A stretch of 20,672 nucleotides of DNA, taken from IMG/VR virus record IMGVR_UViG_3300030106_005270, positions 16,773 through 37,444 of that record; one strand, 5' to 3'. Below the pieces are notes generated by a model, which was not told the DNA's origin, made no database searches, and was given only the letters and a program-made list of their open reading frames with translations. The stretch is from a virus. Positions within the stretch are counted from its first letter, which is position 1, and each line of letters opens with the position of its first letter. Shown in pieces: positions 4,109-20,117 of this stretch. The translations under genes and the position numbers were made by a program.

Positions 4109-4323
4109 AAAAAGAAACCTTTATCTAAAACTTTTTCTAGCAACAGAAGTGATACTGCCCCAACAGTACCCAATAACACCCAATAGATCTTATCTATCTT
4201 ACCGCCCAAATCGTGAATACCTTCGTGCATATGTTTAACGTCTTTTTTTAATCCAGTTATATATCCATAAATAGAAAGCAAATGCTCTCTTGTACTTTTG
4301 GGTTGTAATTTACCATTTGGCAT
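4105..4323 (-). CDS. Small C-terminally membrane-anchored protein, holin-like
   Basis: 72 aa. Residues about 10-47 form an amphipathic or coiled region (LLSIYGYITGLKKDVKHMHE, then GIHDLGGKIDKI). It is followed by one hydrophobic segment WVLLGTVGAVSLLLL (about 48-62) and a short KVLDKGFFF tail. This layout, an N-terminal coiled coil plus one C-terminal transmembrane helix, is like XhlA-type holin-associated proteins; spanin or internal-virion roles are possible. No endolysin is in view to confirm a lysis cassette. The start ATG overlaps the stop of the 1440-aa gene (TAATG), so translation is probably coupled. It is the last gene of the leftward late operon and runs 4 bp into the convergent helicase gene. 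Confidence 0.6.
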   Translation of the reverse strand: MPNGKLQPKSTREHLLSIYGYITGLKKDVKHMHEGIHDLGGKIDKIYWVLLGTVGAVSLLLLEKVLDKGFFF

Positions 4324-7300
4324 TATGCTAATCCTCTTTGTTGTAGCTTAATTGCTTTTTCTTCTTCTGTTAATAATGCATTTTCAGTTCTCGTCAATCC
4401 TTCATTTAGTTGCGCCATTTGATTATTATTTATTACTGCTGGATTAGGATTAGCATCTACTACTTGTTTTGGTAATGGTGGTGTTGGCAGTTCAGATGTT
4501 TGTTGTATTTGTAGTAAATAATTATTAATATCTAAATTAAATTCTTTATTTAATTTTAATTTCATCATGTCTTTTTCCATTTTAAGAATTTTACGTTCTA
4601 CAGATCTAGGAAATATATCTGGTATTTTTTTATCTTTAGCTAAATCTTTTATACCTTCTATTTGACCTTTAGTAATTATTAATGGAAAAAATTTATTATC
4701 TTCTATGTCTTGATATAAAGGTCCTTCTCTTCTTTTAAAAAACATTTCTTCTATTTTACGATCTCTCATACCTAAAGTTTTAACGGCATCGTAAACTCTT
4801 CTTAGTTTACTCATGTCTTCGTAAAAAGATTTGTTTGCTTCAAAATATTGTCTAATTAATAAATTAGGATCTGTTACAGGATCACCTGTTCTTAATCCTT
4901 CAAATATTTTTTTAGCTTCGTTAGCTTGAGATTGTTGAAAGTCTCCTATTTTAAAATTTAAATTTCTCTCTAAATCTAATGGTATTTTTCTAAATCCTAA
5001 AAATCCCATTAATTCATCTGGTATTTCATAGTTAGTTCCTTTAATTGATTCACCTTTTAAGGCAGATATTAATCTTCGTACTTGTGGTAATGATCCAGGT
5101 GATAGAGTGTACGCAACATGTTGTGTGGATTTATACCATTTAGTTAACGTACTATCTTCAGGGTTCCAAACAGGGCTACCATTATCTTTAACACCATTTC
5201 TTAATAAAACATCTGTAACTGCACCAAACCAAATAGACTCAGAGAAAAATGGTTCTAACACTTTACCCATAGCTCTAGTCAATCCATTTGCAAAACCAAC
5301 TATTAATGGGTCATCGTCATTAGCCATTTTTACTTTTTCAACATTTGCTAAAATTGTATTAACAGGATTAATCATTGTATCGTAAAAAAATCCATGACTA
5401 AAATCTATGTATTTGTATTGGCCATCTTCGTAAATTCCTATAATAGTGTTGTCCTCTGACCAAACAGGTAGTATTTCTCTCATTGCATTTAAAGCTTCTC
5501 TTCCAACGCCATACAAAGCAGAGCCAGCTTTTACAGCTGCGATTGGAAAAAATCCATATGTTAATGCTTGACCAGTTAATCTTTTCATACCTATTGTTTC
5601 AAAAATAGGATTTTTAAGTTCTTTTATTGCTAACATTGTAGTATTACCACCTGTTCTAAAAATTTCTGCAGGGAATGATGCAAAACTTCCAACCGGTGAT
5701 CTTCTAATACCTTTTACAAAATCAGATACATACGCATAGTTAGGAACTGTTTCTCTAACTATCTTAGCTGCCTGTTTCATGATGTCTAAATCACTAGGCA
5801 TTTTTTTAATCTTACCAGCTTGAAAAGCTTCTTTGTATGCATTTTTATATTTGTGACCTTCTGCTAAAAAGTTTGTAATTCTAAATACATCATCTTCAGC
5901 TGTATATAAATCAGTGGCTATACCATATAATTTTTTAAATTTTTTTGTTGTTGAATTAACTAATTTATTAAAAAATACTTCAGCAGTTTCATTTCTTTGA
6001 CCAGCAAGAGTAATATCTCCTAATAATCCCTCAACATCTCTAGCCACTACGTTTTGATTAACTACACCTTCCTCTAATAAAAACTTGTATAGTGCTTGAT
6101 CCTCTGGTTGATTTCTAAATCTAGGATTACCAGTTAGTCTATAGAGTAATTGTGGCTGCACACTTTTTCTGGCTGTGTTAGCAAACTCTGCTAACTTTAA
6201 TGGGCTAATTAAAATATTACCACTATGAACAGTAGTAAACACAGCAGAGAAAAAATTTCTTAAGTGCGTAAAAGGACCAAGAATAGTTTTACCAGCTTGA
6301 GATACACCTTTTGGTATAAGCATTAAAGCTCTATAAGGAAGAGATCTTGTAAGAGGGCTAGATACTACTGCATCTCCAGCTATAATAGAATCACGCCATA
6401 TCTTTGATGTAAATTTACCATCTAATGGTGATGAGTATACTTGATCAGATAACCTTGTTGTAAGTTTTAAAGGTGAACGAATTATTTCGGTAAAAGGTAA
6501 TTTAATTAAAGCCGAGTTATAACTAGGATAAAATAATGCTCTTTCCCCTGCAGCTATTAATTTATTATTGTCTCTTAATAATTGTGTGTAAAAATTATCT
6601 CTAGCTACTATTTCAGCTAAATCAGTCATTACATTGTATATTACATTTTTTGCATTTTTATATTCACCAAATAATTTTTTAAAAGCATTTAAGTCAGATT
6701 CTTTTTGTATTAAACCCCCTGTTTTATCTGCTTTAAATTTACCACCAGCAGTTATGTTTTCACCAATATTTTTTATTATAACAGCTTTGTCATCTAAAAT
6801 ATTTACGCTTCCTATTGGAAACTCTGGTGTGTTACTTACAGGATTTTTAGTTACACGTTTTAATATGTTATTAACTACTATCATTGCATCATCTCTATTA
6901 AAAGCTTTCTCTCCATTAGCTCTGTGATATCTTTCTATAATACCAGCTACTTCCTCTTTTGTACTTAAGGTAGGTTTAAAACCATCAAACAAACCAGTAT
7001 TCATATCAAAAATTTTATAATCCGAACCTAAATTATATTTAATTCTATTATTTAAAATTGAATTTAATTCATCAATTCCAACTGTAACATTTTTATTTTG
7101 AGCAATATTATTTTTTAATGCAGCGGCAGATGATCTAAAAGTAATCGCATTGTTTACTAATTCATCTATAGAATTTTTATTAACACCTATTTTTTCCATA
7201 GATTGTCTAAAATCTTTTAAAACTTTAGGTGTAAAACCTTTAAATATAATATCTTTATTTACTTTTTTACCTACCTTTGTTGATTTAACAACATCATCAC

Positions 7301-8645
7301 CAGACAAAATAAACCTAGCAAACATCTTAGAAAGCTCCTCAGGGTTCTGTAAAGCTTCTGTTGCTTTAGTGCTATTTTTAGAAATTTTTTTTAATGCATC
7401 ATCAAAATCTCTAGCAAAATCATCTGCTGTAATTTTAATAGCACTCTTCTTACCTTCTAGTTTTTGAATATTATCAAATATTTCTTGAGCTTTATTACTT
7501 CTAGATCTAAAAGGTTTACCAATAAATTTGTCTACCCATCTCTCTAGTTGTGAATCACTAAATGCAAGATCTTTACCTTTAGTAGCTAAAAGTTTTGCAG
7601 TTTTACCTGTTGCATAAACAAAAGGTAAAATAGGAAAAGCTAACTCTGCTCCAAATTTAAATTTATTATTTAGTTGTCTAAATGCATCATCGGTAGCATT
7701 TAGTTTCTGCTCTCTATCTTGACCAGTCCCTAAAAAATCTAATGCATCTATATCTCCAAATGTTCCAATATCTTCTTGTTTGGCTACAATAAATCCTGTA
7801 CCAAAACCTCCACCTACAGAGATACCAACAAATTTATCAAACTTTGATGCTTTATTTAATTGTTTTGCTTTACTAGCAGCTTTTACAGCATTACCAGTAT
7901 CAGTAGCAGTTTTACCATATCTACCTGTTTTAACAGCGTTAACTAATATTGGCGCTAATGTTCTAGCTTTATTAGTTGCATAAGTTATTACGGGTACAGC
8001 TGTTTTTTGTGCAATTTTTCCGCCACCATATAATTGTGTAAATGCTTCAGTTAGATGTCCGATAGCTGTGGATCTAGCATCTTCTGAAGCTTGTTTTTCT
8101 ATAAGACCTAAAATAGTTTTTTCAAACTCTTTATTAAATCTTTCTGTTAAACTTTCATCTACTGGTATTCCATCATCCTGTAAAGCATCATAAACTAAAG
8201 TAGCAAAGTTAACTACTCCCTTTGGTATTTTAATAGCGCCACTAACTGCAGCTCCTGTTATAGATTGACCAAGACCTACTTCATAATCTTGGGCGGTACC
8301 TAATCCAACTTTTTCTGTTGTTTTAATATTTTTAACTTCAGGTTCTTCAACTTCCTCAGTGTCTATTGTAGATGCTTTTGCATCGCTAATAATTTTAAAA
8401 TCTTTAGGTATTATTCTTATTCTTGGATCGTTTTCTATTGCTTCTTTAGCAAGTCTAGCAGCTGTGGCATCGTCATGACCTAAGTCTAAAAACTCTTGTT
8501 CTTTACGTCTTAGTTCTAAAGCCTCAGGTCCTTCACTTTTTAAAATACGAACATCTCTGCTTGCTGCTTCAATACCTTTTACGATTGCTTCTCGTGTTTC
8601 TTCTGAAGGAATTAGAAAATCATACCAATTAGACTTTTCAGCCAT
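4323..8645 (-). CDS. Very large (1440 aa) putative internal virion/DNA-ejection protein
   Basis: 1440 aa, the largest gene here. The N-terminal 110 residues are charged and helical. Gly/Ala-rich hydrophobic stretches follow (GLGQSITGAAVSGAI; VGGGFGTGFIVA near residue 281). The middle has a long helical part and FTHLRNFFSAVF (near 794), AEDDVFRITNFL (near 918) and LPVWSEDNTIIGIY (near 1060). These last blocks resemble the large phage-encoded proteins of the polyvalent-protein type. The C-terminus is coiled, ending in LTRTENALLTEEEKAI then a QQRGLA tail. Position at the end of the structural operon, size and membrane-active-looking segments fit an ejection protein such as T7 gp16, but I see no transglycosylase or peptidase motif. 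AAGGAG lies 8 nt before the ATG. The stop overlaps the next start. Function is inference. Confidence 0.6.
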   Translation of the reverse strand: MAEKSNWYDFLIPSEETREAIVKGIEAASRDVRILKSEGPEALELRRKEQEFLDLGHDDATAARLAKEAIENDPRIRIIPKDFKIISDAKASTIDTEEVEEPEVKNIKTTEKVGLGTAQDYEVGLGQSITGAAVSGAIKIPKGVVNFATLVYDALQDDGIPVDESLTERFNKEFEKTILGLIEKQASEDARSTAIGHLTEAFTQLYGGGKIAQKTAVPVITYATNKARTLAPILVNAVKTGRYGKTATDTGNAVKAASKAKQLNKASKFDKFVGISVGGGFGTGFIVAKQEDIGTFGDIDALDFLGTGQDREQKLNATDDAFRQLNNKFKFGAELAFPILPFVYATGKTAKLLATKGKDLAFSDSQLERWVDKFIGKPFRSRSNKAQEIFDNIQKLEGKKSAIKITADDFARDFDDALKKISKNSTKATEALQNPEELSKMFARFILSGDDVVKSTKVGKKVNKDIIFKGFTPKVLKDFRQSMEKIGVNKNSIDELVNNAITFRSSAAALKNNIAQNKNVTVGIDELNSILNNRIKYNLGSDYKIFDMNTGLFDGFKPTLSTKEEVAGIIERYHRANGEKAFNRDDAMIVVNNILKRVTKNPVSNTPEFPIGSVNILDDKAVIIKNIGENITAGGKFKADKTGGLIQKESDLNAFKKLFGEYKNAKNVIYNVMTDLAEIVARDNFYTQLLRDNNKLIAAGERALFYPSYNSALIKLPFTEIIRSPLKLTTRLSDQVYSSPLDGKFTSKIWRDSIIAGDAVVSSPLTRSLPYRALMLIPKGVSQAGKTILGPFTHLRNFFSAVFTTVHSGNILISPLKLAEFANTARKSVQPQLLYRLTGNPRFRNQPEDQALYKFLLEEGVVNQNVVARDVEGLLGDITLAGQRNETAEVFFNKLVNSTTKKFKKLYGIATDLYTAEDDVFRITNFLAEGHKYKNAYKEAFQAGKIKKMPSDLDIMKQAAKIVRETVPNYAYVSDFVKGIRRSPVGSFASFPAEIFRTGGNTTMLAIKELKNPIFETIGMKRLTGQALTYGFFPIAAVKAGSALYGVGREALNAMREILPVWSEDNTIIGIYEDGQYKYIDFSHGFFYDTMINPVNTILANVEKVKMANDDDPLIVGFANGLTRAMGKVLEPFFSESIWFGAVTDVLLRNGVKDNGSPVWNPEDSTLTKWYKSTQHVAYTLSPGSLPQVRRLISALKGESIKGTNYEIPDELMGFLGFRKIPLDLERNLNFKIGDFQQSQANEAKKIFEGLRTGDPVTDPNLLIRQYFEANKSFYEDMSKLRRVYDAVKTLGMRDRKIEEMFFKRREGPLYQDIEDNKFFPLIITKGQIEGIKDLAKDKKIPDIFPRSVERKILKMEKDMMKLKLNKEFNLDINNYLLQIQQTSELPTPPLPKQVVDANPNPAVINNNQMAQLNEGLTRTENALLTEEEKAIKLQQRGLA

Positions 8646-8648
8646 TTT

Positions 8649-9497
8649 CTACTCTCCTTTTTCTACGTCTAAATCTATTTTGAAAACTTTATTACCTTGT
8701 CTATAAATGAAATCACCAGTTGTTATATCATAAACATATGTGTTTTCTGGAAGACTAGCCAGTGTACCATTTGGATTAACGTTTGCTCCTAATGATGTAT
8801 CACCCTTATACTCTTCTACTCCGTATACATACTTATCTCTTGACGATGTTCTTAAAAAATTATTATAAGCTTCTGGATTAATTTTTGATAATTTCTGTTC
8901 ATCTAGATAAATTAAATTAGCTTGGTCGGTAGTTAAAGTAGGACCCATTCTATCAGATGTTACTTTTACAATGTCTTCTAGTTTAAGAGCTCTCTCATCT
9001 CTTTCTACATCTACAGGACTTTTAGATTTTCTAAATGCAGGTTTTAATCTATCAAAGGCCTCTTCTCTAGTAAATCCACCACCTTCTTCTGACATTAAAT
9101 ATTCTATTTGTTCTTGCAAAGCTATTTTATCTGAGTCAGATAAATCCTTAACAAAATCTAAAGCTATTGCTCTTTTAGTTGCTCTTTCACTTCTTCTATC
9201 TTTTAATAAACTTTGAACAGGTTTTTCTGAAGCTAAAAGTAAATTAGGTATTAAACCACCTCCACCTGTTTGTTTTACAATTTGTGGTCCAAGTTGTAAT
9301 AAGAAAGATGTTATAGGGTCATCTAATTTAGAAGTCCCTGCCATATCATCCACTATTTTTAATTTTTCTTTTATTGATAAATTTAAATCATCAGCATTAC
9401 TTTCTGCATATTGTCCTCTTTCAACAATATTGTTCATGATACCACCACCGGTAGTGCCACCTTTTCTAAACATAGGTCTTTTAAGTATTCGACTCAT
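8649..9497 (-). CDS. Virion-associated protein with MFRKGG..GGIM N-terminal motif
   Basis: 282 aa. The N-terminus reads RPMFRKGG then TTGGGIMNNIVERGQ (residues 7-28). I associate this Gly-rich basic leader with structural genes of marine uvMED phages, just upstream of the large ejection protein gene. A Gly-Gly patch follows (KQTGGGGLIPN, about 75-85), then a charged helical region with a REEAFDRLKPAFRK segment, and a beta-like C-terminus (ENTYVYDITTGDFIYRQG). No enzyme motif is visible. It ends 3 bp before the 1440-aa gene starts and begins 1 bp after the Gln-rich gene ends, so all three are almost certainly cotranscribed. Likely a virion or ejection-complex component; no specific function can be claimed. 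Confidence 0.6.
   Translation of the reverse strand: MSRILKRPMFRKGGTTGGGIMNNIVERGQYAESNADDLNLSIKEKLKIVDDMAGTSKLDDPITSFLLQLGPQIVKQTGGGGLIPNLLLASEKPVQSLLKDRRSERATKRAIALDFVKDLSDSDKIALQEQIEYLMSEEGGGFTREEAFDRLKPAFRKSKSPVDVERDERALKLEDIVKVTSDRMGPTLTTDQANLIYLDEQKLSKINPEAYNNFLRTSSRDKYVYGVEEYKGDTSLGANVNPNGTLASLPENTYVYDITTGDFIYRQGNKVFKIDLDVEKGE
8654..8659 (-). promoter_or_regulatory. Strong ribosome-binding site of the 1440-aa gene
   Basis: AAGGAG on the minus strand, 8 nt before ATG 8645. It lies inside the end of the preceding gene (stop at 8651-8649) and fixes the start of the giant gene. Confidence 0.65.
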
Positions 9498-9498
9498 A

Positions 9499-10302
9499 TT
9501 AATTAAATGCTCTGTATATCCCCGCTAACGTAGCTCCCGCACCTATCGCTGTTTGTAGTGGTGTAGGTGAAGGTGAAACTGTAGTTTGGAATTGTGCTGG
9601 GTATCCAGCTATTAAACTCGTAACACCAGAACCAAGTTGTTGAGCTAAGTTTAGTGGTCTATTTGCTTGTTGTTGTAATAATTGTTGTTGAGCAGACAAC
9701 TGAGCTTGTTGTTGTGCTTGTTGCTGTGTACCTAATGCACTTAAAGCTGAAATCTGTTGACCAAATAATGCAGGTGCAGTCTGTGCTAAATTTAATTGAT
9801 TAGCAAAATTTTGTTGTGCAAGCTGTTGCGCTTGACCAAAACCTTGTTGTAATAATTGTGATTGTAATGCTGCTCGGTTCCTGTCGCTTGCTTGTTGAAA
9901 CTCTGCTAATTGAACACCTTCTCTTCCACCACCAAATGCACCAGAACGAATAGCTTGTGCTCTTAATGCTGGTAGACCTTTTGCGGCTTGTATATCAAAT
10001 TCTTTTAAAGTTGCATCAATTACATCTTTTTGAAAAGGAGATGTAAATTGTTTATAAGCTTGTGGTCCCGTTGTAGCTGCTGCAGTCTGTAAGAATGGTG
10101 CAAAAGATCCAAGGCCACCTGCTAGTGCTTGTGCTTGTTGAGTTAGTGCACTTGGTCCAGCTACAAATTGTGGACCAAAAAGTGTAGTTAAATCTTGAGT
10201 CTTTGCATCTCCTATAGCACTTTGTAATTGTTCTAAAAATGTTTGACCCGCTGCTTCAATAAACGGAGCTGGTAAATTTTGTATTGTTTGAACTTCTGCC
10301 AT
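9499..10302 (-). CDS. Gln/Ala-rich virion (probable ejection or tail) protein
   Basis: 267 aa. The central block SPFQKDVIDATLKEFD (88-103) followed by RSGAFGGGREGV (119-130) matches a phage structural family with a (Y/F)xxPFxxDVID....RxGAFGGxRxG signature, found in many podoviruses near internal virion proteins. Residues about 150-225 are extremely Gln-rich (GTQQQAQQQAQLSAQQQ), predicting a long helical coiled coil. N- and C-termini are hydrophobic or Gly-rich. Its start ATG overlaps the stop of the upstream gene (TAATG). The CAA/CAG runs make the DNA at about 9660-9730 look like a trinucleotide repeat, but they are coding. Virion role likely; ejection role inferred from neighbours. Confidence 0.65.
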   Translation of the reverse strand: MAEVQTIQNLPAPFIEAAGQTFLEQLQSAIGDAKTQDLTTLFGPQFVAGPSALTQQAQALAGGLGSFAPFLQTAAATTGPQAYKQFTSPFQKDVIDATLKEFDIQAAKGLPALRAQAIRSGAFGGGREGVQLAEFQQASDRNRAALQSQLLQQGFGQAQQLAQQNFANQLNLAQTAPALFGQQISALSALGTQQQAQQQAQLSAQQQLLQQQANRPLNLAQQLGSGVTSLIAGYPAQFQTTVSPSPTPLQTAIGAGATLAGIYRAFN

Positions 10303-11567
10303 TATACTACTCTACTCTCTAGGCTTTTCATGAGATCATACATTCTCTGAGCACCTTTATTTACACTGCCACCACCAGCAGCTCTTACTGCATCAGCAGT
10401 AAATACAAATTCGTTATTTGATAACATCGCTGGGATATCATCAGCTTTTTCTTTTACACCAACAGGTGGTATAAATCCACCAGATTTTCTTAAATCTAAT
10501 TCTGTAATACCAGCTTTATTTTCTCTAAGAGGTAAACCTTCCATGCTTGATGCTTGCATAGCGTTATCACTCGCACTGTCTCCCATAGCTCTCATTATTC
10601 TACCACCCATAGCTTTATCTTCAGAAAGTATTCTTCTAGCTTCTTCAATTGCTTCTTGTTGAGAAAAACCTTGTTCTCTAAGTTCTGATACAAGTTCCAT
10701 AAATTTATCTTCACTACCAGAGGCATAACCAATACGTCCACCTTCAGCCATATCTCCTGCAGGTATTGTTTGATCACTCGCATCTCGAACTAAAGCGTTT
10801 ATTCTTATTTCGTATTCTTCATCAGATTCATTATCACCTTTTGGATATAATCTTTTAAATTGAACGTTAAGTTGTTCTTGCACTAATGCTTTTCTATTTT
10901 CAAAATCTGTAGTCGACTCACCAGGTAATGGCTCTTGTTGAGATAACAAACCAGTAATTATTCCACCAGTTCCACCTATTTTTAATGCATCTAGGACAGC
11001 ACCACTGCCTGACTCAGCTCCAGATAAATTTAAAATATTTGTAAGTGCACCTTTTTTAAATATGTCAGAAGCTCCTCCAATAAAAGATGTTGGACTCATA
11101 AAGTTTTGAAAGAAAGTTCTACCACCTGCTAAATTACCTAAACCACCTGTGACTGTATACAATAATGCAGCTTTACCTATTGGAGATTTAACAACTTTCT
11201 TAGCAGCTTTTTTAATTGATTTAACAAGACTACCTAAACCATATTGTGCTCTACCACCCGTAGCCATAAATTTAGATCTTAATCTTTGTATTTCTTCATC
11301 TAACAAATCTAATTCATCTTCCGTTAGATCTTTTAATTGTTTACCAAACAACTCCATAGCCATGTCATTTTTTTCTGACATTGGGTCTAAGTACCCAGCT
11401 ATCTTTTTATCATCCTCTAAATCTTTATCAAAAGGATTTAACGGATTATCTCTAGTATCTGGAAATTCTTCTTCTTCTACTTTTTTTATTCTGTAATCAC
11501 CCACTAACTTAATAGGTGATGCTCCAGCTTTAAATTCTTTTGCTTGTTTAGTCTTTGTTATTGCCAT
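10302..11567 (-). CDS. Virion protein with repeated GGRIGYA-type motifs and conserved MLSNNEFVF C-terminus
   Basis: 421 aa from ATG 11567; an in-frame GTG at 11603 would add 12 residues but has only AGGA 3 nt ahead of it, so I prefer MAITKTKQ. Three related Gly-Arg motifs occur: MATGGRAQYGLGS (101-113), MAEGGRIGYASGS (273-285) and AMGGRIMRAMGDS (319-331). The middle holds a basic helix KSIKKAAKKVVKS and hydrophobic Gly-rich stretches (about 130-210), which could insert into membrane. The C-terminus contains KADDIPAMLSNNEFVFTADA (374-393) then VRAAGGGSVNKG, a block widespread in phage tail and virion proteins, and ends in a short helix. No enzyme motif. It follows the GT-A glycosyltransferase by 56 bp. 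Structural or ejection role inferred. Confidence 0.65.
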   Translation of the reverse strand: MAITKTKQAKEFKAGASPIKLVGDYRIKKVEEEEFPDTRDNPLNPFDKDLEDDKKIAGYLDPMSEKNDMAMELFGKQLKDLTEDELDLLDEEIQRLRSKFMATGGRAQYGLGSLVKSIKKAAKKVVKSPIGKAALLYTVTGGLGNLAGGRTFFQNFMSPTSFIGGASDIFKKGALTNILNLSGAESGSGAVLDALKIGGTGGIITGLLSQQEPLPGESTTDFENRKALVQEQLNVQFKRLYPKGDNESDEEYEIRINALVRDASDQTIPAGDMAEGGRIGYASGSEDKFMELVSELREQGFSQQEAIEEARRILSEDKAMGGRIMRAMGDSASDNAMQASSMEGLPLRENKAGITELDLRKSGGFIPPVGVKEKADDIPAMLSNNEFVFTADAVRAAGGGSVNKGAQRMYDLMKSLESRVV

Positions 11568-11623
11568 AATTTTGTCTAAATTTAGTTTATAGGGCAGGCA
11601 CACTAATCCTGAAATATCACACT

Positions 11624-18538: not shown

Positions 18539-19117
18539 TTAAGTTTTAATAATGTATATTAAAGCTAAATAAGGCTGTATTACAGATGTTGCATCTCCAG
18601 TAAACGTAGCACTCATATTATGATCGTGTCCCCCGCCACTTCCTGTGCTTCCAGTATTGGAAGGACTAAAACCAGGTCTAAGGTTTTCATTAAATTGCGA
18701 TTGACCTCTACGCATGTTAGATGATGCGTTACCACCACCAGGGTGAGAGTGAGATGCAAGTTGCGCTGTGCTTAAAGTAGCATTAGCGGTAGTTCCGCCA
18801 ATATTTCCTGTTGTAGCGACGGTAGCTGCTCCGCCAGTGGAAGCTAAAGATTTGTTTGGAGATTTACTAACTGGAACTCTATCCTGTATGTCGGGTAACT
18901 CAAAAGTAGTAGCACCATCTCCCGAACCATAAGTTGTACCTATGACAGCAAATAAAGCAGAATAAGTTGATCGTGAAACGGTTGCACCATTGCACTCTAA
19001 GAAACCACTAGGTAATGATGATGCAGTCCAAGGGACTATAGTAGCTGTAGGTATAAGCTCTAAACCTGTTATGTTTTGACCATCATAGTCATATCTAGTT
19101 GCTTCATAATTAGCCAT
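18539..19117 (-). CDS. Tail-collar-domain short tail fibre protein (paralogue A)
   Basis: 192 aa. The Phage_Collar (Tail_Collar/MdpB-type) domain is clear: TIVPWTASSLPSGFLECNGA (26-45), TVSRSTYSALFAVIGTTYGS (46-65), then GDGATTFELPDIQDRVP. The C-terminal part has two His-rich, Gly-rich turns, ASHSHPGGGN (121-130) and GGGHDHN (161-167), similar to the metal-binding H-x-H stations of phage fibre tips, and ends TSVIQPYLALIYIIKT. Likely trimeric receptor-binding or collar protein at the tail. Paralogous to the gene at 19539-20117 (147 of 192 identical by hand, no gaps). Ribosome-binding site AAGGTG is weak. Its stop abuts that of the + strand oxygenase (18538/18539). Confidence 0.82.
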   Translation of the reverse strand: MANYEATRYDYDGQNITGLELIPTATIVPWTASSLPSGFLECNGATVSRSTYSALFAVIGTTYGSGDGATTFELPDIQDRVPVSKSPNKSLASTGGAATVATTGNIGGTTANATLSTAQLASHSHPGGGNASSNMRRGQSQFNENLRPGFSPSNTGSTGSGGGHDHNMSATFTGDATSVIQPYLALIYIIKT

Positions 19118-19538: not shown

Positions 19539-20117
19539 CTACGTCTTAATTATATATATCACAGTTATATAAGGTTGCAATACAGAAGTCGAATCTCCTG
19601 AAAAAGTTGCACTTAAATTGTGTGAGTGTCCTCCACCACTTCCTGCGTTTCCAGTTCCAGCTGATGAAAAACCTGGATTAATATTTTCGTTTAGCTGCCC
19701 CTGTCCTCTAGCACTGTTAGGTGATGCATTACCACCTCCAGGGTGACTGTGAGATGCTAATTGTGGTGTTGATAAAGTTGCGTTAGCTGTTGTGCCTCCA
19801 ACGTTTCCGCTTGAAGCTACCGTGTTTGCTCCACCTGTTGATGCTAAAGCTTTAGTTCCAGATTTTCCTAATGCAACATTGTCTTGAAGATCAGGTACTT
19901 CAAAAGTAGTTGCACCATCTCCAGCTCCGTAAGTTGTTCCTATAACTGCAAATAATGCAGAGTAAGTTGATCTTGAAACAGTGGCACCATTACACTCTAA
20001 AAAACCTGTTGGCACTGAAGAAGAGGACCACGGCACAATAGTTGCCGTTGGTATTCCTTCAATACCTGTAAGATTAGCACCATCAAAATCGTATTTAGTT
20101 GCTTCGTAGTTAGCCAT
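19539..20117 (-). CDS. Tail-collar-domain short tail fibre protein (paralogue B)
   Basis: 192 aa, same architecture as the 18539-19117 gene: TIVPWSSSSVPTGFLECNGA (26-45), TVSRSTYSALFAVIGTTYGA (46-65), His-rich ASHSHPGGGN and GGGHSHN, and a C-terminal QPYITVIYIIKT. Alignment is ungapped; differences cluster at 81-88 and 131-160, the part likely to face outwards, while the collar core is nearly invariant. AAGGAG ahead of ATG 20117 lies inside the 3' end of the upstream fibre gene, spacing 9 nt. Probable receptor-contact or collar protein; either duplicate could be functional or specialised. No sign of decay. Confidence 0.82.
   Translation of the reverse strand: MANYEATKYDFDGANLTGIEGIPTATIVPWSSSSVPTGFLECNGATVSRSTYSALFAVIGTTYGAGDGATTFEVPDLQDNVALGKSGTKALASTGGANTVASSGNVGGTTANATLSTPQLASHSHPGGGNASPNSARGQGQLNENINPGFSSAGTGNAGSGGGHSHNLSATFSGDSTSVLQPYITVIYIIKT

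Follow-up and report, generated by a model that had tools for sequence, protein, structure and literature searches.

A conserved A-x-G-G-R-I-G-Y/F motif in ejection-module and terminase–portal proteins of SU10-portal podoviruses: a possible tag for head-internal proteins

Internal proteins of phage T4 carry an N-terminal capsid-targeting sequence, which is removed by the prohead protease. Phage T7 follows another track: its small core protein gp6.7 has loops that bind the portal barrel and gp15, with loop I encircling the barrel and helping to hold the core (PMC11784390). In phage SU10, gp20 to gp24 are found in virions and are missing from the genome-release intermediate (PMC9509320). Polyvalent (PMC5512222) and MuF-type proteins are large, modular and varying, are associated with portal and terminase and are presumed to be packaged and to reach the cell along with the DNA. 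Tags for head-internal proteins and variable effectors next to the portal are already known kinds. The present analysis concerns a short motif, sharpened over some 150 related loci of viruses to the consensus A-x-G-G-R-[IV]-G-[YF]-A-x-G, which suggests an undescribed tag by which proteins inside the phage head would be marked or joined.

The window, i.e. the whole stretch of DNA analysed, comprises 20,672 bases of a 37.4 kb viral record. Its ejection module encodes, in this order, a window-family protein (the window protein), an ejection-type protein, an RPMFR protein and a giant protein, with the following features:

10302–11567, minus strand: window protein, part of the ejection module; it holds three GGR motifs, and its C-terminal module is tape-measure-like
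11229–11267, minus strand: motif 1, MATGGRAQYGLGS, followed by a Lys-rich segment, SLVKSIKKAAKKVVKSPIGKAALL
10713–10751, minus strand: motif 2, MAEGGRIGYASGS, its Arg at least 90% conserved
10611–10724, minus strand: helical hairpin, ASGSEDKFMELVSELREQGFSQQEAIEEARRILSEDKA, an insertable module that separates motif 2 from motif 3
10575–10613, minus strand: motif 3, AMGGRIMRAMGDS, in most homologs missing or fused with motif 2
10305–10511, minus strand: near-invariant C-terminal module, GITELDLRK..ADDIPAMLSNNEFVFTADAVRAAGGGSVNKGAQRMYDLMKSLE, tape-measure-like, with weak PHROG matches
9499–10302, minus strand: DNA-ejection-type protein (phrog_4287, DNA ejection protein, E 4e-8), in a conserved gene order
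8649–9497, minus strand: RPMFR-leader protein of the ejection module, whose relatives sometimes have a GGR motif after the leader
9435–9479, minus strand: N-terminal leader RPMFRKGGTTGGGIM, residues 7–21, at the start of the RPMFR protein
4323–8645, minus strand: giant protein of 1440 aa, whose gene closes the ejection module, without the GGR tag

Elsewhere in the window, two closely similar 192-aa proteins (MANYEATRYDYDG.. and MANYEATKYDFDG.., at 18539–19117 and 19539–20117), tail-collar-like by eye, flank a short gene, and the window's own record (L001) has short runs of unknown residues within the open reading frames 1860–2393 and 4843–5553.

The listed frame of the window protein (10302–11603, minus strand) opens with GTG at 11603; since homologs begin at MAIT, translation probably starts from the ATG at 11567. 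The three GGR motifs picked out by the sequence-only reading agree in sequence and coordinates with this frame and stand at residues 116, 288 and 333, while a fourth GGR at residue 160 (GGRTFF, 11118–11126) has no motif context. When the protein is shuffled, three or more GGR appear in 0.14% of the trials and four or more in 0.01%; 65 homologs, taken from loci picked solely for homology to the window protein, average 1.85 GGR each, compared with 0.32 after shuffling. An alignment of 55 homologs shows no variation at R118, the Arg of motif 1; the corresponding Arg of motif 2, at least 90% conserved, is R290. Motif 3 belongs to a variable insertion: it exists because the hairpin, of about 38 residues, was inserted between two GGR motifs, and most homologs show a single GGR there, the split arrangement being found in the window protein and a few others. 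In some homologs the same hairpin module lies before motif 1, and it also stands ahead of a GGR motif in three proteins encoded between terminase and portal (L130, L163 and L178).

With its C-terminal ADDIPAMLSNNEFV-type module the window protein recalls tape-measure proteins, and its homolog in the freshwater phage DSL-LC04 is annotated as one; it differs in its length of 433 aa and in belonging to a module of podovirus type, where there is no long tail. Matches to PHROG tape-measure profiles (best E 0.0009, ranging to 0.06) cover only some 30–50 C-terminal residues, and none across most of the protein was found. A profile run against PDB sequences gave as its sole match T7 protein 7.3 (E 0.03), over a Lys-rich stretch, which may be compositional; it agrees with weak Pfam and PHROG matches to T7-type small virion proteins. 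Foldseek with the model of the window protein returned no PDB match at E ≤ 0.001. The AlphaFold models of this protein (mean pLDDT 66.6) and of L178, an unrelated terminase–portal protein with four GGR motifs (mean 56.0), place all seven of seven motif copies at pLDDT below 50, between helical modules; in the window protein the low stretches are residues 116–141 (motif 1), 286–295 (motif 2) and 333–341 (motif 3). The motif would hence sit in predicted disordered linkers, a modest piece of evidence because about 42–47% of the residues in both models fall below 50.

A degenerate DNA pattern that encodes A-x-G-G-R-I-G-[YF]-A found at least 120 matching stretches in viruses, and 0 once its codons were put in permuted order; the motif is far above chance. 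Bacterial and archaeal genomes totalling 257 Gb yielded 27 matches to the pattern, and the three convincing cases all lie on virus-like contigs of 4–9 kb within marine MAGs, so that a cellular (host) motif was discarded. Copies number one to five per protein and are internal. The Gly at +8, outside the search pattern, is 94% conserved, and the residue ahead of the Gly-Gly varies (D 44%, E 24%, then T, Q, K and N). Codons for Gly, Arg, Ile and Tyr/Phe differ between copies, and selection is therefore on the protein. Over 187 motif copies in viral loci, the Arg codon CGT is over-used (29% versus 8% at the other Arg positions of these proteins). When short peptides were run by tblastn against INPHARED, nothing beyond HTVC027P and weak chance matches came up, or no match at all; a text search of 5.39 million papers did not find the strings GGRIGY and GGRIGF; and no Pfam or PHROG family covering the motif was found in the proteins scanned. 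Two apparently different phages (L179, 3612–4730; L185, 1875–3020) have a protein with the N-terminus MPSTTPKQARTMAAAAH... and several A-x-GG segments, including IAEGGRIGFARGG.

The sequence-only reading had placed such a motif in many unrelated marine phage proteins. The carriers are indeed unrelated outside the motif, but they come mainly from one podovirus lineage with SU10-type portals. The portal and adaptor of the cultured pelagiphage HTVC027P belong to the SU10 families (PF23899, E 1.6e-14, and PF24175, E 2.1e-22), and the assignment goes through this relative because the window's own record, a fragment, is without these genes. A portal tree puts most of the phages with the motif in one clade of 32 rows (support 94/94), while the motif contigs L116 and L144 group near HTVC023P and DSL-LC04. 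These last two, distant relatives, have looser A-x-G-G or GG[IL] in the same slots, where GGRIG was not found. From the cultured relatives we infer marine, SAR11-like hosts.

Window-type loci resemble SU10 in their gene order: a nozzle-like gene, then the ejection cluster, which ends in a giant protein (about 1470 aa in SU10). There are also differences. There is no GGR tag in SU10 gp20–23 or in the examined part of gp24, and the SU10 terminase gene directly adjoins the portal gene, without slot proteins. Aligned by hhalign to SU10 gp20–24, the ejection-type protein gave the best probability, 19% against gp21, and the window family gave at most 2%, values too low to establish sequence homology. 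By gene order, the phrog_4287 match and analogy with SU10, the genes of the window's module are probably ejection proteins; gene order and SU10 likewise suggest that the tagged proteins are in the virion.

Where the motif stands is sharply defined. With families assigned by profiles seeded from HTVC027P, and proteins of at least 100 aa counted, it is nearly confined to the ejection module and to the terminase–portal interval or the position directly after the portal. It is carried by 97/148 members of the window family, 76/99 terminase–portal proteins and 5/6 post-portal proteins, fractions that are inflated because most motif loci were picked for holding the motif. It is sparse in the RPMFR (9/91) and ejection-type (3/115) families and in the gene after the nozzle-like gene (3/99), and was found in no giant (0/75), nozzle-like (0/123), portal (0/47) or terminase (0/30) protein, i.e. 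0/275, and in 3/887 of all other genes. This near-absence from other genes is not inflated by the motif-based choice of loci. In HTVC027P, the motif is in gp41 and gp42, within the terminase–portal interval, and in gp82, the homolog of the window protein. As a forward check, portals were sought in 27 records whose sole ground of selection was a homolog of the window protein; a portal was present in three, and the one record among these that reached well into the terminase–portal interval has SDGGRIGFSEGS there. The positional pattern asked of a shared tag is thus present, in the ejection module and the terminase–portal slot.

The leader of the RPMFR protein had been taken for a relative of the motif. 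RPMFRKGG..GGIM is present (residues 9–21, at 9435–9473, in gene 8649–9497), but it is a distinct motif: [RK]x(1,2)MF[RK] occurs in all 66 distinct N-termini of this family, and 7/84 of its members carry the GGR motif too. The ejection-type protein (9499–10302) and its relatives have a conserved segment of their own, GAFGGGREGV, kept in HTVC023P and present as GAFGGTREGV in DSL-LC04; it is separate from the motif, and its GGGREG raises the raw GGR counts of this protein (1.24 per protein).

The terminase–portal interval is a hypervariable gene slot. Shared residues of its proteins amount on average to 40% when the portals are 90–97% identical, 23% at 80–90%, 8% at 70–80% and 3% at 60–70%. Among 66 such proteins, at least 62 are without a Pfam match at E 0.001; TAT_signal was matched in two, HTH_3 in one and RWP-RK in one, and with these three Pfam families two or more effector or polyvalent-associated domains were not found. 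PHROGs added one endonuclease VII match and three unnamed ones. In HTVC027P gp42 (L203, 23405–26083), weak HTH/DNA-invertase-like PHROG matches were seen, and an HNH-like stretch lies upstream of the motif and of a hydrophobic segment. When the motif is masked, terminase–portal proteins give 804 internal alignment starts, of which 413 fall within 20 residues after a motif start, against 42 expected for random positions, and 361 alignments begin just past the motif in both partners; these alignments are non-independent and involve 39 of the 72 motif-bearing proteins.

We favour, with a probability of roughly 0.4, the reading that the motif is a short linear recognition tag that sits where modules join in head-internal, ejected proteins of the podovirus lineage with SU10-type portals. 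Arg, Ile and Tyr/Phe are conserved in predicted disordered linkers of proteins that are unrelated outside the motif. The tagged proteins would travel in the head and leave it together with the DNA, and the tag would be bound at the portal vertex by a single partner common to them all, either the portal barrel or the ejection core; recognition by such a partner would therefore allow unrelated cargo modules to be exchanged and yet still be loaded. Against this reading, the tag is not general in the ejection module, since the giant protein, most ejection-type proteins and most RPMFR proteins are without it, and HTVC023P and DSL-LC04 have the looser forms in these slots. A bolder version, which we regard as doubtful, would have modular cargo loading beside the portal in an abundant pelagiphage group, the hypervariable, uncharacterised proteins with A-x-G-G-R-I-G-Y/F being exchanged freely, docked in the head and injected into the host with the DNA.

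Like the T4 capsid-targeting sequence, the motif is common to unrelated proteins, which it would direct into the head, but its copies are internal, one to five per protein, and no protease was recognised among the HTVC027P proteins scanned. T7 gp6.7 offers a functional precedent, short flexible segments tethering ejection proteins to the portal barrel; it is, however, a separate small protein rather than a tag repeated in many, with no sequence relation shown. Polyvalent and MuF-type proteins share with the terminase–portal proteins their size, modularity, variation and position, as well as the presumed delivery with DNA, but the latter are almost all outside Pfam families. The tag is not described in the polyvalent study (PMC5512222), from which the word glycine is absent.

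Other roles have to be weighed against recognition. The motif might be a structural junction, a flexible hinge or cap that has no specific partner and lets helical and membrane-seeking modules succeed one another and be threaded through the tail channel, its conservation reflecting modules that spread together with it. This fits with the shuffling of modules on both sides, with the charge of the flanks (the 40 aa upstream are acidic, those downstream basic) and with the position of hydrophobic segments in terminase–portal proteins, 30 of 33 of which follow the first motif when 19 are expected. We nevertheless consider it rather unlikely: keeping Arg, Ile and Tyr/Phe across unrelated flanks, with varying codons, goes beyond what a hinge needs, and the giant protein of the same module does without the motif.

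Proteolytic processing had also been among the functions first suggested. A protease would cut at or near A-x-G-G/R and free a variable N-terminal cargo domain, as proteases of adenovirus and African swine fever virus cut after Gly-Gly. The Gly-Gly core is conserved, the copies are in predicted disordered linkers, and terminase–portal homology starts directly past the motif. A cleavage site or a junction linker predicts a homology break exactly there, which binding alone does not, and cleavage is for this reason a serious rival. To be sure, no protease family is among the families listed for the 38 HTVC027P proteins scanned, nor is there one for gp56–58 of the head cluster; three head-cluster proteins are without known function. 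The C33-type peptidase domain noted in HTVC027P gp34 (PMC12753301) is in a protein of only 46 residues. The lack of a recognised protease makes cleavage less likely. Furthermore, the residue before the Gly-Gly is variable, and conservation runs on through I, G, Y/F, A and the +8 Gly, further than most cleavage sites require. On balance, cleavage appears unlikely.

Still less probable is a membrane-insertion or export element, in which the motif would introduce membrane-active helices (a Tat-like RRxFLK and a hydrophobic segment), acting during ejection into the envelope or in export within the infected cell. Twenty aligned terminase–portal proteins do have the composite GGRIGFKxGGMxRRxFLKxxGGxASxPxxGK, [RK]RxF[LIMV] follows 29/273 motif sites, and there are the two TAT_signal matches in 66 proteins. 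Yet 193/273 sites are followed neither by [RK]RxF[LIMV] nor by the other recurrent modules counted, and the RRxFLK segment is internal, no N-terminal Tat signal peptide being found. Eight terminase–portal genes (L178, L119, L167, L157, L117, L095, L112 and L141) have an internal Tat-like G-M-[STD]-R-R-T-F-[LM]-K with a hydrophobic stretch directly after the GGR motif, and the same eight have a recurring C-terminal end, e.g. ASGGIARMLGE. Finally, a DNA-level element, i.e. a recombination site or recently spread repeat read by chance as GGRIGYA, is hardly credible: the exchange of modules at the motif and the excess of CGT would suit it, but the variation of all Gly, Arg, Ile and Tyr/Phe codons among copies largely refutes it.

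Nearly all terminase–portal proteins are without annotation. If the reading as a recognition tag is true, the motif would provide a sequence handle for ejected cargo proteins in pelagiphages of the HTVC027P/HTVC023P type, which are reported to be very abundant in the ocean (PMC9599517), and which proteins enter the head and the cell would become a testable question on a cultured phage.
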